Part shown: one piece after another, positions 5,958 through 36,236 of the stretch
Numbering within the stretch: the first letter of the stretch is position 1
Layout: the number at the start of each line of letters is the position of its first letter
Source: an uncultured Bacteroidota bacterium
GTDB lineage: Bacteria; Bacteroidota; Bacteroidia; Flavobacteriales; Flavobacteriaceae
DNA: 43,050 bases
Direction of reading: 5' to 3'
Assembly (NCBI GenBank): GCA_902519075.1
Contig: CABYIO010000008.1
Span: forward strand, 1-43,050
Notes under the pieces: generated by a model
Told to the model about the DNA's origin: nothing
The model's input: only the letters and a program-made list of their open reading frames with translations
The model's database searches: none
Position numbers and translations under genes: made by a program

Positions 5958-5991
5958 AAGGTATTTTGTTTGATAACAAACAAAATACCTT
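5958..5991 (-). other. Perfect 15-bp hairpin between tuf and tRNA-Trp
   Basis: A 15-bp uninterrupted stem closed by a 4-base loop (5973-5976). On the transcribed strand it lies 22 bases after the tuf stop and 11 bases before the mature tRNA 5' end. No U-tract follows, so it is not a textbook intrinsic terminator. It may protect the tuf mRNA 3' end or act as a processing site that frees the tRNA. Confidence 0.7.
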
Positions 5992-7973: not shown

Positions 7974-8834
7974 TTAATAATTTTCTTCAGCTAGTTTGTA
8001 GATCCTAAGAATGATTAAACCAAAAACTACTCCAAGAATTAATAATAAAATACTGTAAAGTCCTTCTGCGCCAAAAGAAAGTCTCAGTAAAATTGTTGAA
8101 ATAATAAACCCTGTATTTCTTATTAATTGAGAATATCTCTCAGTATACTGGAAGGAAATCAATAATATAAATACATCAACTAAGATAAGAATTGTAAAAA
8201 AGTCTATAAAGAAAACACCATTTAAATTTTCATTGTAAGATTCTGATATAAACACTTGAACTACCCACTCATAAAAGTTAACAAAACATAGAATCAAAAG
8301 AGTAGGAACTAACAAAATTGACATAAGCTTCTTGTAATTAATAAACTTATTTAAATTTTTATTTGATTTACGTTTAGGAGTATTAATCCATGTTTTTTTA
8401 AATAGATATATCAGATAAAAGATAACTATTACGGCCAGCAAATCATATAGTAACTGCAAATTGTTAGCATTCAGAATAGTTGAACTATCTAAACTGATTT
8501 CTGGAATATCTTTAAATATTTTTCTAATCAGGACTAGAGAAATAATTTCATATTCTTTTGCCACTGATGTAGTAAAAGATCTTGGCAGATAATATATTAA
8601 TAAAAACGCCTCATAAACTAGTATAAAGGTGAACGGTGTATAGAGGGCTGATATAGGGTTGCTTGATAAATTTGTTTTAGATGAGAATATATCTATACCA
8701 TAATAGTTCTCAAAAAATATTAAAATCAGATGAACTATAAAACCACCAACCGCAAGAAACATAATGTTTTTCTCAAATAGCTCAACATTTTTCTGAGAGA
8801 AAACATTAGAATGTAAAGTTTCAATTCTATTCAT
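7974..8834 (-). CDS. Uncharacterised multi-pass membrane protein
   Basis: Family not recognised. It has 286 residues with six or seven hydrophobic segments (near 24-42, 64-84, 132-146, 168-188, 206-228, 238-258 and 262-280). After the last helix the tail is charged (YKLAEENY). A loop of Lys/Arg/Asn around 148-166 is probably cytoplasmic. The ATG at 8834 lies inside a long RNA stem (8816-8881), which is unusual and may control its translation; Met25 at 8762 is an alternative start outside the stem. It lies between a double-domain lipoprotein gene and an AlkA-like gene on the same strand. Confidence 0.75.
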   Translation of the reverse strand: MNRIETLHSNVFSQKNVELFEKNIMFLAVGGFIVHLILIFFENYYGIDIFSSKTNLSSNPISALYTPFTFILVYEAFLLIYYLPRSFTTSVAKEYEIISLVLIRKIFKDIPEISLDSSTILNANNLQLLYDLLAVIVIFYLIYLFKKTWINTPKRKSNKNLNKFINYKKLMSILLVPTLLILCFVNFYEWVVQVFISESYNENLNGVFFIDFFTILILVDVFILLISFQYTERYSQLIRNTGFIISTILLRLSFGAEGLYSILLLILGVVFGLIILRIYKLAEENY

Positions 8835-8881
8835 AACCAGACAATTACAATATTTATGCCGTTATGAATAGAATTAAACTT
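8816..8881 (-). promoter_or_regulatory. 21-bp stem-loop covering the start codon of the 8834 gene
   Basis: The RNA arm from 8881 to 8861 pairs with the arm from 8837 to 8816: 15 bp perfect, one bulged G (8822), then 6 more bp, closed by a 23-base loop (8838-8860). The AUG at 8834-8832 is in the middle of the 15-bp part. It lies between the stop of the lipoprotein gene (8894) and the membrane gene. It is probably a translational control structure, or else a trace of an inverted duplication of the gene start. Confidence 0.75.
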
Positions 8882-8893
8882 AAATTATTATAT

Positions 8894-9649
8894 CTATAGT
8901 ACTGGTACTCCGTTAGAAATAGTAGAAATTGGAGCTACCATGTAAATATCCTTTTTGTAGACATTAGTGTTGCTATCACCTTCAAAACCAGTCCAAAGTT
9001 CAGATAGTAAATAATCATCAATTGCTGATCTAGATGTAAAATAATAAACACCGCCATATATATTACCGTCTGTACTATTAATCATAGTCTTACCAATCAT
9101 ACCAGGGAAATTTTCATTGCTGAAAACCGGAGCATATTCTTTCACTTGACTTGATATTTCTTCATCAGTTGGATTAACCTCATTAGTATAATTTACAACA
9201 AGGATGTGAAGTCCGGATGCATCATCTGGATTAGAGGATGTTTTTCTCATGGAATGATTTCCATTTGCTAATTCAGTACCATCAAATGTTTTGAAAACAT
9301 CAGTTTTGAAGTTAACTAAATTTGGATGTGCGACCACACCTTTCCATAATTCTGATTCTAAATAAACATCAACATCTTTCTGATTTGAGAAATAATATAC
9401 ACCTCCAAAGATTTCCGTCTCTAAATTTCCTATGAATGATTTTCCAAGTAGACCTGGTACATTTTCAGATGTAAAGCTTGGAGCAACAGCACTACCCAAT
9501 TCAGCATGCTCTTCTAAAGTCATATTTTCAAGCTGATAATTTACGATTAATACCGTTTCATCTGCATAAATTGAGGTTTGGTCATTAGTATTTGAGTTTT
9601 TACAACCCATTAGCATGATAAAACAGGAGAATATTAAAAATTTTTTCAT
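8894..9649 (-). CDS. Lipoprotein with two tandem YdhR-like (dimeric alpha/beta barrel) domains
   Basis: It has 251 residues. A lipoprotein signal ends at Cys16 (FIMLMGC). Two homologous units follow, roughly 34-125 and 147-242. Each begins with a beta strand (VLIVNYQ / ILVVNYT), continues with a FPG/VPG-L/M-GK-hydrophobic segment and contains the signature GGVYYF...YL.SELW (IFGGVYYFSNQKDVDVYLES in the first copy). This signature resembles the YdhR putative monooxygenase family, small cytoplasmic proteins that pair into a dimer. Here both halves are fused and exported with a lipid anchor. Enzyme activity is unproven and no catalytic residues are known to me. The assignment to YdhR is by motif and moderately sure. 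Confidence 0.75.
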   Translation of the reverse strand: MKKFLIFSCFIMLMGCKNSNTNDQTSIYADETVLIVNYQLENMTLEEHAELGSAVAPSFTSENVPGLLGKSFIGNLETEIFGGVYYFSNQKDVDVYLESELWKGVVAHPNLVNFKTDVFKTFDGTELANGNHSMRKTSSNPDDASGLHILVVNYTNEVNPTDEEISSQVKEYAPVFSNENFPGMIGKTMINSTDGNIYGGVYYFTSRSAIDDYLLSELWTGFEGDSNTNVYKKDIYMVAPISTISNGVPVL

Positions 9650-9783
9650 TGATTTTAATTTTAAATAATTATTGATAGTTCAATTTAAACTGAATTTATT
9701 AAATAACAAAGTGAGTTTAAAAAATTAAGATAAATATTTTTAAAGTGGCACATGATTTGTTATTTGACAAGAAAAATAGTTAA

Positions 9784-10398
9784 ATGAAAAATCTAATCAT
9801 TATCGGTCATCCTTACAAGAAATCATTTTGTTATAATGGAATATTTAAAACAATTTTTAATGAGATAAATAAGTCTGGCCAAGAGTTAGAGGTGATTGAT
9901 TTATATAGAGATAGTTTTTCTAGACCTCGAACAAAACTGATAGATAAGTATAAAAACTTAGTGCTTTGGAGTGAAAGAATATATATTATTTCACCTGTAT
10001 GGTGGTTTAGGTTAACTCCAAGAATGGAAGTTTTCTTCGATGAAGTACTTACTCCGGGTTTCGCATATAAGTTTGTAAATATAACGAAGACATATGCCTA
10101 TCCAAAACCATTTTTAAAAGATAAAAAAGTACGTACTTATATTACTCACGGAGCACCAGCTTTGCCTGTTAAAACCCTTTATTTTAATTCAGTCAAATTA
10201 AGATTGGTAATGGGTGTTTATTCTTTTGTTTTTGGATGGAAACTATCACTTTGGTTTAAAACAAAACAATTTTGGTCAGTTCCTTTTGTAAGTGATAAAA
10301 AAAGAAAAAAATATTTAGGAGTGGTATTAAATGATATTAGAAATGATCTTAGAACTAAGAATGTTTTTAATCATAAACCAGCTTTACAAAATAGCTAA
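9784..10398 (+). CDS. NAD(P)H-dependent oxidoreductase, flavodoxin fold (NQO1/MdaB/KefF type)
   Basis: Probable FMN- or FAD-binding quinone or nitro reductase of 204 residues. The N-terminal strand and loop LIIIGHPYKKSFCYNGIF is the flavin-phosphate region of the Flavodoxin_2 family, and IISPVWWFRLTPRMEVFFD (about 76-94) is the typical flavin-contact loop followed by a helix. It is the first gene of a four-gene plus-strand run and ends 2 bases before the DoxX-like gene. In this pairing the membrane partner may share redox or detoxification work, but that is inference. Confidence 0.85.
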   Translation: MKNLIIIGHPYKKSFCYNGIFKTIFNEINKSGQELEVIDLYRDSFSRPRTKLIDKYKNLVLWSERIYIISPVWWFRLTPRMEVFFDEVLTPGFAYKFVNITKTYAYPKPFLKDKKVRTYITHGAPALPVKTLYFNSVKLRLVMGVYSFVFGWKLSLWFKTKQFWSVPFVSDKKRKKYLGVVLNDIRNDLRTKNVFNHKPALQNS

Positions 10399-27834: not shown

Positions 27835-28560
27835 TTAGCTTCTTGCAGCATGCCATACAGCCATACCAAATCCAATTTTGTTAATAGCATCACCTACGTT
27901 GTAAATGATATTCATAGCTCCTTCATCGATAGCTACAAAAGCATACCAACCGTCAGTTCCTGCCATATATCCAATTGGATAAATAGCCCAACCAACAAGA
28001 ACGAACCATTGTAACATTCTACCAGCCTCTGGAATTTTTCCAGAACCACTAGCAAGGGCGTTACCTACAGCACCTGAAGGACCACCGAAGATAGATAAAC
28101 ATCCAACTTCATAAGCCATCCAGAAGTAAGCAAGACCAGAAACAGCACCCCAAGTTTGAGCGTCTAACATTCCTGTTACACCTGACTCACCGAAATATCC
28201 GGCTACTAACATTACAACTGATGCCCAGAATAATTTTCTCATTCCTACACCCGTTAAAAGAGCAAACTCAACTACCATTAGAGGTACAGTAAGAATCCAA
28301 TCTATATACCTTAATTCAGTTGGAGAAGATCCATCAAGAACCCATTGCTCTCTCATGTAAAAATAATGCACAGCTGCAATACCAGTAATAAGTGCTGCAA
28401 CAAGCATTGAATCTTTAAATTTCTTGTCAACCTGACCGTGTTGCATTAAGAACCAAACAGTCGCTGCTAACATTGAAACTGAGCCGATAAAGAACGTAAA
28501 TCCAGTAAAATCTCCTGGAGCTATGCTCGCGGCATCAAAAATAAAATTTAACATTTCCAT
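27835..28560 (-). CDS. Green-absorbing proteorhodopsin (proton pump)
   Basis: Light-driven outward proton pump, 241 residues, seven helices. Key residues from the alignment to known proteorhodopsin: proton acceptor Asp87 (RYIDW), Thr91, proton donor Glu98 (the DTE set of proton pumps), His65 pairing with the acceptor, and retinal lysine Lys228 (DAINKIGFG). The spectral tuning position (105 in the SAR86 protein) is Met95, the common green form in Flavobacteriia. It is not an NQ sodium pump. Met3 could also be the start. The gene is less AT-rich in codon use than its neighbours, fitting high expression. Confidence 0.96.
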   Translation of the reverse strand: MEMLNFIFDAASIAPGDFTGFTFFIGSVSMLAATVWFLMQHGQVDKKFKDSMLVAALITGIAAVHYFYMREQWVLDGSSPTELRYIDWILTVPLMVVEFALLTGVGMRKLFWASVVMLVAGYFGESGVTGMLDAQTWGAVSGLAYFWMAYEVGCLSIFGGPSGAVGNALASGSGKIPEAGRMLQWFVLVGWAIYPIGYMAGTDGWYAFVAIDEGAMNIIYNVGDAINKIGFGMAVWHAARS

Positions 28561-28874
28561 AATTATATAGTGTTTAATTTGTTATACACCAAAATTACAC
28601 AAAATATATGCCAAATTGTTAAAAAATTCTTAAAAAATTGAGAACTTTTCAATGTTTGTACCTAAATATTAACTATTTAACAGATAAGAAACTAATTAAA
28701 ATCAAAAATATGGCATATTTCTTTAACGGTTTTGAAAATATGAAATTTAAGCTAAAATTGATAAAATATGACCTTTTTTAAAAAAATAGACTAAATATAA
28801 TTTTTAGAAATTATTAACTAAAAACATACCTTCATTTTAAGATAATTAATGATAAATTTGTAAAAAATCTAATT
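28561..28874. other. 314-bp intergenic region between proteorhodopsin and kdsA
   Basis: Very AT-rich with no credible coding frame or RNA gene. It holds the divergent promoters: TAATTTTG at 28590-28597 (minus) for proteorhodopsin and TAAATTTG at 28853-28860 (plus) for kdsA; clear -33 TTG boxes at normal spacing are lacking for both. An 8-base inverted pair ATATGCCA / TGGCATAT (about 28606 and 28711) was noted, with no proven meaning. Confidence 0.6.
28590..28597 (-). promoter_or_regulatory. -7 element of proteorhodopsin
   Basis: TAATTTTG on the minus strand, about 30 bases before the ATG. The nearest upstream TTTG is only about 14 bases away, so the -33 box is poor; the promoter may depend on an activator. 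Confidence 0.4.
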
Positions 28875-31076: not shown

Positions 31077-32240
31077 CTAAATTTTTATAAAATCTTTTAC
31101 ATTTTTTGCAGAGATCTCTTTATCCCCTAGAATAATTAATCTTTCGATTACATTTCTTAATTCCCTAACATTTCCTGACCAATCATATTTTTTCATCAGA
31201 TCAATTGCTTTGTTAGAAAATTTTTTAGCCTTATTCCCTTGAGAATCAGCAATGTTTTTTGCAAAGTGCTCAATCAAAAGTGGAATATCGTCTTTTCTTG
31301 AATTTAGAGGAGGCACATCAATAATAATAACTGCTAATCTGTGATATAAATCTTCTCTAAATTTTCCATTTCCGATTTCCTTTTTTAAATCTTTATTTGT
31401 TGCAGCTATTACCCTAACATCAATTTTGATGTCTTTTCCTCCGCCAACTTTTTGTATGCAGTTATCTTGTAAAACTCTTAATACTTTTGCTTGGGCAGAT
31501 AAACTCATATCTCCAATTTCATCAAGAAAAATTGTACCATTATGAGCTGCCTCAAATTTTCCAACCTTATCTTTTACTGCTCCAGTAAATGAGCCTTTAA
31601 CATGACCAAATAATTCACTCTCGATCAATTCGCTTGGTATTGCAGCACAATTAACTTCAATTAATGGCTGATGAGCTCTTCTACTGAGATTATGTATTGA
31701 TTTAGCAACAAGTTCTTTTCCTGAACCATTAGGTCCATTAATCAAAATCTTGGCATCAGTCTCAGCAACTTTATCAATCAAATCTTTTATTTCGTTAATT
31801 GCCTTACTTTTACCTATCATTTCAAAATTCTTACTGATTTTTTTTCTCAGTAATTTATTCTCTACAACAAGCTGTTTTCTATCTAACGCATTCCTAACCG
31901 TTGTTAACAATCTATTTAAATCTGGAGGTTTGGAAATATAATCAAAAGCTCCTTTTTTCATAGAATCAACAGCTAATTCTAAATCTCCATGACCTGAAAT
32001 CATGATAATTGGAGTTTCTGGAGTATTTTTCTTAGAATAATCTAGAACCTCCATTCCGTCAACCTTTGGCATTTTTATGTCAGAAATAATTAAGTCATAA
32101 GAGTTTTTCTTCACCTGATTAATTGCATCAATACCATTTTCAGCTTCATCAATTTCATGAGATTTATCTTCCTCAGAAAGGATCTTTACTAGAACTCTTC
32201 TGATGGCTGGTTCATCTTCGATTATTAAAATTTTAGACAT
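31077..32240 (-). CDS. NtrC-type sigma-54 response regulator lacking a DNA-binding domain
   Basis: It has 387 residues: receiver domain (1-120, phospho-acceptor Asp54 in IISDIKMP), then an AAA+ sigma-54 interaction domain with Walker A GPNGSGKE, the sigma-54 contact loop GSFTGA (Ser instead of the first Ala of GAFTGA), Walker B GTIFLDEIGD and sensor NVRELRNVIERL. It stops soon after at VKDFIKI, where a Fis-type helix-turn-helix would normally follow; the next ATG begins one base later, so no lost domain is hidden. It may act from solution without binding an enhancer, as proposed for FlgR. No sensor kinase is adjacent. Confidence 0.9.
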   Translation of the reverse strand: MSKILIIEDEPAIRRVLVKILSEEDKSHEIDEAENGIDAINQVKKNSYDLIISDIKMPKVDGMEVLDYSKKNTPETPIIMISGHGDLELAVDSMKKGAFDYISKPPDLNRLLTTVRNALDRKQLVVENKLLRKKISKNFEMIGKSKAINEIKDLIDKVAETDAKILINGPNGSGKELVAKSIHNLSRRAHQPLIEVNCAAIPSELIESELFGHVKGSFTGAVKDKVGKFEAAHNGTIFLDEIGDMSLSAQAKVLRVLQDNCIQKVGGGKDIKIDVRVIAATNKDLKKEIGNGKFREDLYHRLAVIIIDVPPLNSRKDDIPLLIEHFAKNIADSQGNKAKKFSNKAIDLMKKYDWSGNVRELRNVIERLIILGDKEISAKNVKDFIKI

Positions 32241-36176: not shown

Positions 36177-36236
36177 CTATCTGATTTTATTTACTTATTG
36201 CAAAATTACTGCCATATTGAAATTAGTGCCAAAATG

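Follow-up and report, generated by a model that had tools for sequence, protein, structure and literature searches.

The window, the whole 43,050-nt stretch of contig CABYIO010000008.1 analysed here, comes from an uncultured Flavobacteriaceae bacterium and carries on its minus strand a lipoprotein gene followed by a gene for a membrane protein. The start codon of the second gene lies in one arm of an inverted repeat, and the loop between the arms contains a sigma-54 type promoter box. The features used in what follows are:

7974..8834, minus strand: gene for a 286-aa membrane protein, proposed to be the controlled gene; relatives in many Bacteroidota records; helical structure model
8816..8837, minus strand: 3′ arm of the inverted repeat, holding the first five codons of the membrane-protein gene, AUG included
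8835, minus strand: transcription start predicted from promoter geometry, which puts it 25 bases beyond the first G of the box and gives a 1-base leader
8847..8860, minus strand: sigma-54 type −24/−12 box (GG at 8860-8859, N10, GT at 8848-8847), in the hairpin loop
8861..8881, minus strand: 5′ arm of the repeat, in the noncoding stretch that separates the lipoprotein stop codon from the promoter; from the fold and identity comparisons
8894..9649, minus strand: YdhR-type lipoprotein gene (PF08803, 1.6e-16), upstream and co-directional, source of a possible read-through mRNA
9747..9759, plus strand: second sigma-54-like box, upstream of the divergent flavodoxin-fold gene, with a predicted leader of about 12 bases
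9784..10398, plus strand: divergent flavodoxin-fold gene (PF02525; tblastn)
31077..32240, minus strand: sigma-54 activator with a receiver domain (PF00072, 1.2e-30) and PF00158 (6.6e-70)
36200-36213, minus strand: consensus-like sigma-54 box TGGCAGTAATTTTGC, preceding grpE-dnaJ

The membrane protein belongs to no Pfam or NCBIfam family above cut-off, and its structure model (helical, mean pLDDT 79.6) had no PDB match at E ≤0.001. Sequence matches at E ≤0.001 were found in 26 of the 100 genomes searched, its own included, some of them weak and partial; a larger scan gave 125 places encoding relatives, of which 80 were kept. Within the genus, whose members we take to be marine, 17 of 21 genomes have a strong match, G002 and G012 have weak partial ones only, and G009 and G014 have none. 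One of the 17 (G019) has its 5′ end cut by a contig boundary, leaving 16 genomes with a readable 5′ region. The genus genomes are incomplete, and G005 has ambiguous bases; the genome of the window (G000) is 71.55% complete, its 69 contigs adding up to 1.24 Mb. The AUG at 8834-8832 is very probably the real start, judging by the aligned homologues: residues F12, S13 and E21, all ahead of Met25, show no or almost no change across 34 sequences, and homologues of 48-67% identity begin, by eye, at this AUG or within a few codons of it. A start at Met25 is rejected on these two grounds. Several genus genomes also have an open frame of ~660 aa (e.g. G000:C1:19362-19577) to which residues ~20-94 of the protein are weakly similar (E 7e-5 to 1e-3); this frame possibly carries a related membrane domain.

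The initial annotation of the window described a long stem burying this start codon, and the stem is as it described: on the minus strand 8861-8881 pairs with 8816-8837 over 21 bp around a 23-base loop, with a perfect block of 15 bp (8823-8837 with 8861-8875) and the AUG within the stem. It also held chance to be an improbable source, which shuffling and repeat counts bear out; the stem is real and well beyond chance. The segment 8790-8900 folds at −23.9 kcal/mol (z −4.09), a value that none of 200 shuffles equalled. Two perfect 15-bp inverted repeats whose loop is 60 bases or shorter lie in the window; 40 dinucleotide-shuffled versions average 0.10, one of them reaching three. Among the 35 window genes scored, the membrane-gene start ranks lowest both in folding energy and in unpaired probability. 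An unpaired probability of the AUG below 0.02 occurs in five of the 35, this gene included, so a buried AUG is not unique by itself. The mirrored copy of the gene start reported on the plus strand (ATGAATAGAATT at 8864) is present as a consequence of the repeat, and opens a frame of 11 codons only. A dispersed repeat is rejected: the 15-mer of the stem has one forward and one reverse match in its own, incomplete genome (71.55%), both at the hairpin. A search of the window with Rfam 15 at gathering score returned five tRNA matches and no RNA family at the hairpin. The only other perfect 15-bp inverted repeat of the window, at 5958-5991, lies just after the EF-Tu gene and is perhaps its terminator.

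In sigma-54 promoters ten bases separate GG from G[CT], and the surrounding sequence resembles TGGCAY-N5-TTGC. The box in the hairpin loop departs from this in having C rather than T before GG and, as its last base, T or A rather than C, and is thus weaker than consensus. The form GGCAY-N5-TTG stands upstream of the ATG in all 16 genus genomes with a readable 5′ region; the distance from the first G of the box to the A of ATG is 26 bases in 13 of these and 28-29 in the other three. In a scan of 79 of the 80 kept membrane-protein loci the box was present in 15, all of them genus loci, and absent in 64, which makes it a feature of the genus. RpoN was found in 19 of the 21 genus genomes, the exceptions being the genome of the window (71.55% complete) and G008. 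PF00158 matches all 21 genus genomes but all 14 control genomes too, and the count was therefore confined to strong matches; an activator at E <1e-60 is present in 19 of 21, G012 and G016 being without one. The protein encoded at 31077..32240 would be a candidate activator of these promoters. The pattern GGCAYA-N4-TTG occurs 18 times in the genome of the window against 8 for the reversed pattern, several of the 18 lying inside genes, and is therefore not specific by itself. We infer that the loop box is used by sigma-54, with a start at 8835.

Transcription from −24/−12 promoters begins some 25 bases downstream of the box's first G, about 12 bases beyond the −12 element. By this geometry the predicted leader is 1 base in 13 of the 16 genomes and 3-4 bases in the other three. 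With its predicted start one base before the AUG, the gene's own mRNA would lack the upstream arm, and only read-through mRNA from the lipoprotein gene could form the stem. On the predicted sigma-54 mRNA of the 12 genomes with the lipoprotein gene upstream, the A of the AUG is unpaired with a probability of 0.81-0.99, the other two bases going down to 0.21 in some. The predicted leaderless mRNA pairs all three bases of its AUG in G010 and G018 and two of them in G007, which argues against easy translation there.

The neighbour of the membrane gene differs within the genus. The lipoprotein gene is upstream, co-directional and 54-59 bases away in 12 of the 16 genomes; G007, G008, G010 and G018 lack it there, and the divergent flavodoxin-fold gene adjoins the membrane gene instead. 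No conserved promoter of the lipoprotein gene is evident by eye. The initial annotation had named the preceding lipoprotein gene as relevant, and the stem does track it: in folds of 100 bases of read-through mRNA the AUG is buried in all 12 genomes that have the lipoprotein gene (each base unpaired ≤0.04) and in none of the four without it (unpaired 0.41-0.99). Among the 12, the z-score of the stem is −3.2 or lower in nine, −1.9 in G016, −1.6 in G017 and 0.2 in G005; the modest stems of G016 and G017 were equalled by 11 and 23 of 300 shuffles. In a context of ~330 bases the AUG is buried in 11 of 12, with an unpaired probability of at most 0.010 from 4 to 37°C, the exception being G005 (0.93 at 37°C). 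Opening by temperature, one of the releases suggested in the initial annotation, is not supported by these folds, since none of the 11 melts in silico over that range. In the gene tree G008, without the lipoprotein gene at this place, is sister of G016 with support 100/100. The link between stem and neighbour thus needs at least two changes on the tree, and two changes are what it rests on.

We propose that the inverted repeat brackets the membrane gene's own sigma-54 promoter and insulates the gene from its lipoprotein neighbour, and put the probability of this at about 0.5. RNA polymerase with sigma-54 and an activator would start near 8835. The mRNA, with a single base ahead of the AUG, would be almost leaderless, would lack the upstream arm and would have its start codon exposed. 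Read-through mRNA from the lipoprotein gene would have both arms and fold into the 21-bp stem, with no initiation at the AUG. Translation would then be limited to mRNA from the gene's own regulated promoter. The proposal builds on the observed stem, box, conserved spacing, stem-lipoprotein link and arm conservation (below); it supposes in addition that the read-through mRNA exists and that the stem would block its translation. The initial annotation had expected a strong block of translation unless the stem is opened. The block part stands for mRNA with both arms, on which the AUG is buried; opening appears unneeded, the predicted start of the loop promoter being at the AUG.

A broader reading takes the short leader as the general feature. 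The pattern GGCAYA-N4-TTG-N{11,18}-ATG matches at 114 places across the 21 genus genomes, the reversed pattern at 7. A spacer of 13 accounts for 48 of the 114; the next most frequent, 14, accounts for 20, of which 16 are one family judged coding by eye. After removal of that family, of a second family of 6 also judged coding, and of the 16 membrane-gene matches, 76 remain; 35 of these have spacer 13 and no other length exceeds 9. From 40 chosen places that were fetched, 34 have an exact 1-base leader and an opening frame of 109-165 aa, although in some of them the box also falls inside a long open frame (six frames checked). By eye the 34 loci form three families, named from a scan of one member each: DUF6150, a thioredoxin-like lipoprotein and a TonB-plug-like lipoprotein. 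Examples of the 26-base box-to-ATG register are G000:C26:1056-1084, G000:C6:33-61 and G004:C13:14416-14444. The bases between box and ATG are variable in the three families (identity 0.43-0.65), while the length is constant. When T is required before GG and the spacer is fixed at 13, the 21 genus genomes give 34 matches (control 0) and the other 79 genomes 19 (control 7). Of these outside loci seven were fetched; one (G024) has a frame of 80 aa and the rest have at most 48 aa, and a leaderless geometry beyond the genus is not upheld.

The same box-to-AUG spacing in these three families predicts leaderless sigma-54 mRNAs. Slightly short of an even chance, in our judgement, is the fuller statement that the genus has a leaderless sigma-54 regulon, in which several unrelated envelope genes have their AUG at the second mRNA base and, at the locus described here, a hairpin built by selection lets only the leaderless mRNA be translated. 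The hairpin is not a general companion of leaderless sigma-54 genes, a possibility that we reject. The mean unpaired probability of the AUG is 0.05 or lower in 4 of the 34 loci. Their nearest upstream frames, found mechanically, are co-directional in 7 and divergent or antisense in 23, with no frame in 4; the seven co-directional cases, all thioredoxin-like with the frame 103-255 bases away, include one that buries its AUG. Insulation is thus no general need of such genes.

The link to the lipoprotein gene also fits a hairpin that belongs to the lipoprotein mRNA, marking or protecting its 3′ end as a barrier to 3′-5′ exonucleases or as a stem used with Rho, the covering of the AUG being a by-product. 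In the window the hairpin begins 12 bases past the lipoprotein stop codon, and genomes that lack this gene upstream do not have the hairpin. Against this, a search for intrinsic terminators (a G+C-bearing stem, a short loop and a T run) found no site in 8600-9900, and an intrinsic terminator reading of the hairpin is rejected on that count. The one lipoprotein homologue found away from this place, in G018, runs up to a convergent frame and is followed by no comparable hairpin, which argues, as one case, against the hairpin being simply the lipoprotein 3′ end. Neither the exact coincidence of the 3′ arm with the start region nor the near lack of variation in codons 2-5 would be explained. We regard a 3′-end role as unlikely, at something like one chance in five.

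Conservation is unusually high in both arms. The 5′ arm has, over the 12 genomes, a mean pairwise identity of 0.861, against 0.626 for the neighbouring spacer; in the same 8-9 genomes it has 0.80-0.82, against 0.44-0.51 at matching distance upstream of the box in the three other sigma-54 families. Codons 2-5 have an identity of 0.94-0.95, compared with 0.41-0.76 in those families. Among the 12 genomes, synonymous variation is present at 247 of the 277 codons of the gene, but at one of the four codons 2-5; 4 of 259 four-codon windows are as poor in it. The 12 genomes show two kinds of change in codons 2-5 (AGA/AGG and AAT/GAT), both of which by eye keep a pair with U; G008, without the lipoprotein gene there, has three changes in these codons, all by eye at broken pairs. 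Changes in the 5′ arm that break a pair occur in single genomes (G017, G011, G004 and G005). Covariation, to which the initial annotation looked for support, is absent: none of 18 pairs has changed on both sides, and 88.8% of cells are paired against 88.6% in shuffles (18 pairs, with G008 among the genomes). Since the 3′ arm codes for protein and hardly varies, this comparison has low power. That annotation would have counted an upstream arm absent or variable in relatives against the stem; in genomes with the lipoprotein gene the arm is there and does not vary freely, and it is the missing covariation that stands on that side.

Missing covariation and pairs broken in single genomes are what would be expected of a neutral inverted repeat, arisen by template switching when the lipoprotein gene arrived and kept by common descent. 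Such a repeat would leave the conservation of the arms unaccounted for, since the noncoding arm and codons 2-5 both exceed comparable sites in the same genomes and so few windows are equally poor in synonymous variation; we hold it to be improbable, though not to the point of dismissal. Marginally less probable again is a DNA-binding regulator with one half-site in each arm, on either side of the sigma-54 promoter. A near-perfect dyad around a promoter with conserved arms would suit such a regulator, but the promoter is kept and the dyad absent in four of four genomes without the lipoprotein gene there, and no other copy of the 15-mer was found in the own, incomplete genome. Very improbable is the idea of the initial annotation, that the usual transcript of the gene carries a switch which a protein, a small RNA or temperature opens. 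It would suit the burial of the AUG when both arms are present but is at odds with a normal mRNA predicted to start inside the hairpin, with the lack of melting in silico in 11 of 12 genomes and with the lack of an Rfam family here, and nothing in the data hints at a protein or small-RNA switch.

Insulation by a promoter placed in the hairpin would have parallels in known systems. The transposase genes of IS10 and IS50 are protected from read-through by external mRNA that folds over the start. The proposed fold of external mRNA is similar; unlike those cases, no transposase or insertion element is seen here. Closer in layout are phage genes: hairpin control is described for the T4 late genes I-TevI, I-TevII, I-TevIII, segB, soc and e and for mobE of Aeh1, in passages of PMC2988022 that name soc and e for sequestration. 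According to the same passages, the late promoter of I-TevI is placed so that the short mRNA lacks the stem sequence, and the arrangement is similar for I-TevII, I-TevIII, segB and mobE (PMC2988022). Our locus would share with these genes a stable stem over the initiation site on a long upstream mRNA, here seen in silico, and a promoter placed so that the gene's own mRNA lacks an arm, here deduced from the DNA. The T4 and Aeh1 cases are phage genes with phage promoters, with intron-encoded endonucleases that have a Shine-Dalgarno site; ours is a chromosomal gene of a bacterium, its promoter is of sigma-54 type and its predicted leader is one base long. The mRNAs of the phylum lack Shine-Dalgarno sequences, and initiation in F. 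johnsoniae is partly tuned by structure around the start codon, as stated in parts of PMC6847099, so a 21-bp stem should matter. If our reading is true, it would put the T4 late-gene device on a bacterial chromosome, coupled with leaderless initiation, and genomes with and without the neighbour, and with and without the hairpin, would be a natural experiment in keeping a regulated gene independent of an adjacent gene. The fixed box-to-AUG spacing in four gene families can be put to a direct test, as it predicts sigma-54 mRNAs beginning at the AUG; in F. psychrophilum 5.5% of mRNAs are leaderless overall, and the sections of PMC9723704 concerned draw no tie between leaderless mRNA and sigma-54.

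The genus has sigma-54 boxes at other genes as well. The regulon of F. psychrophilum, in the relevant sections of PMC9723704, has −24/−12 promoters before dnaK, grpE-dnaJ, a thioredoxin-family protein and lipoproteins, and the genus resembles it in promoter type and in having such genes among the likely targets. With grpE taken as an independent check, the TGGCAGTAATTTTG box, in the form GGCAGTAATTTTG, precedes it in 12 of 14 loci with a frame found (17 scanned), the first ATG following 36-38 bases after GG in 11 of the 12; a box is also found ahead of dnaK, with DnaK recognised by eye. groES is a sigma-54 target in F. psychrophilum; in the genus a groES box was found in none of the 11 loci with a frame found by script (16 scanned, 17 matches), which counts against the proposal. 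Within the window a sigma-54-like box, GGCATATATTTTG, lies at 28600-28612 on the minus strand ahead of a proteorhodopsin gene (27835-28560). In 15 genus loci scanned (16 matches) the corresponding sequence is GGCA-N6-TTG in 12, has GGTA in two and is neither in one, and this may be a sigma-A type box instead.
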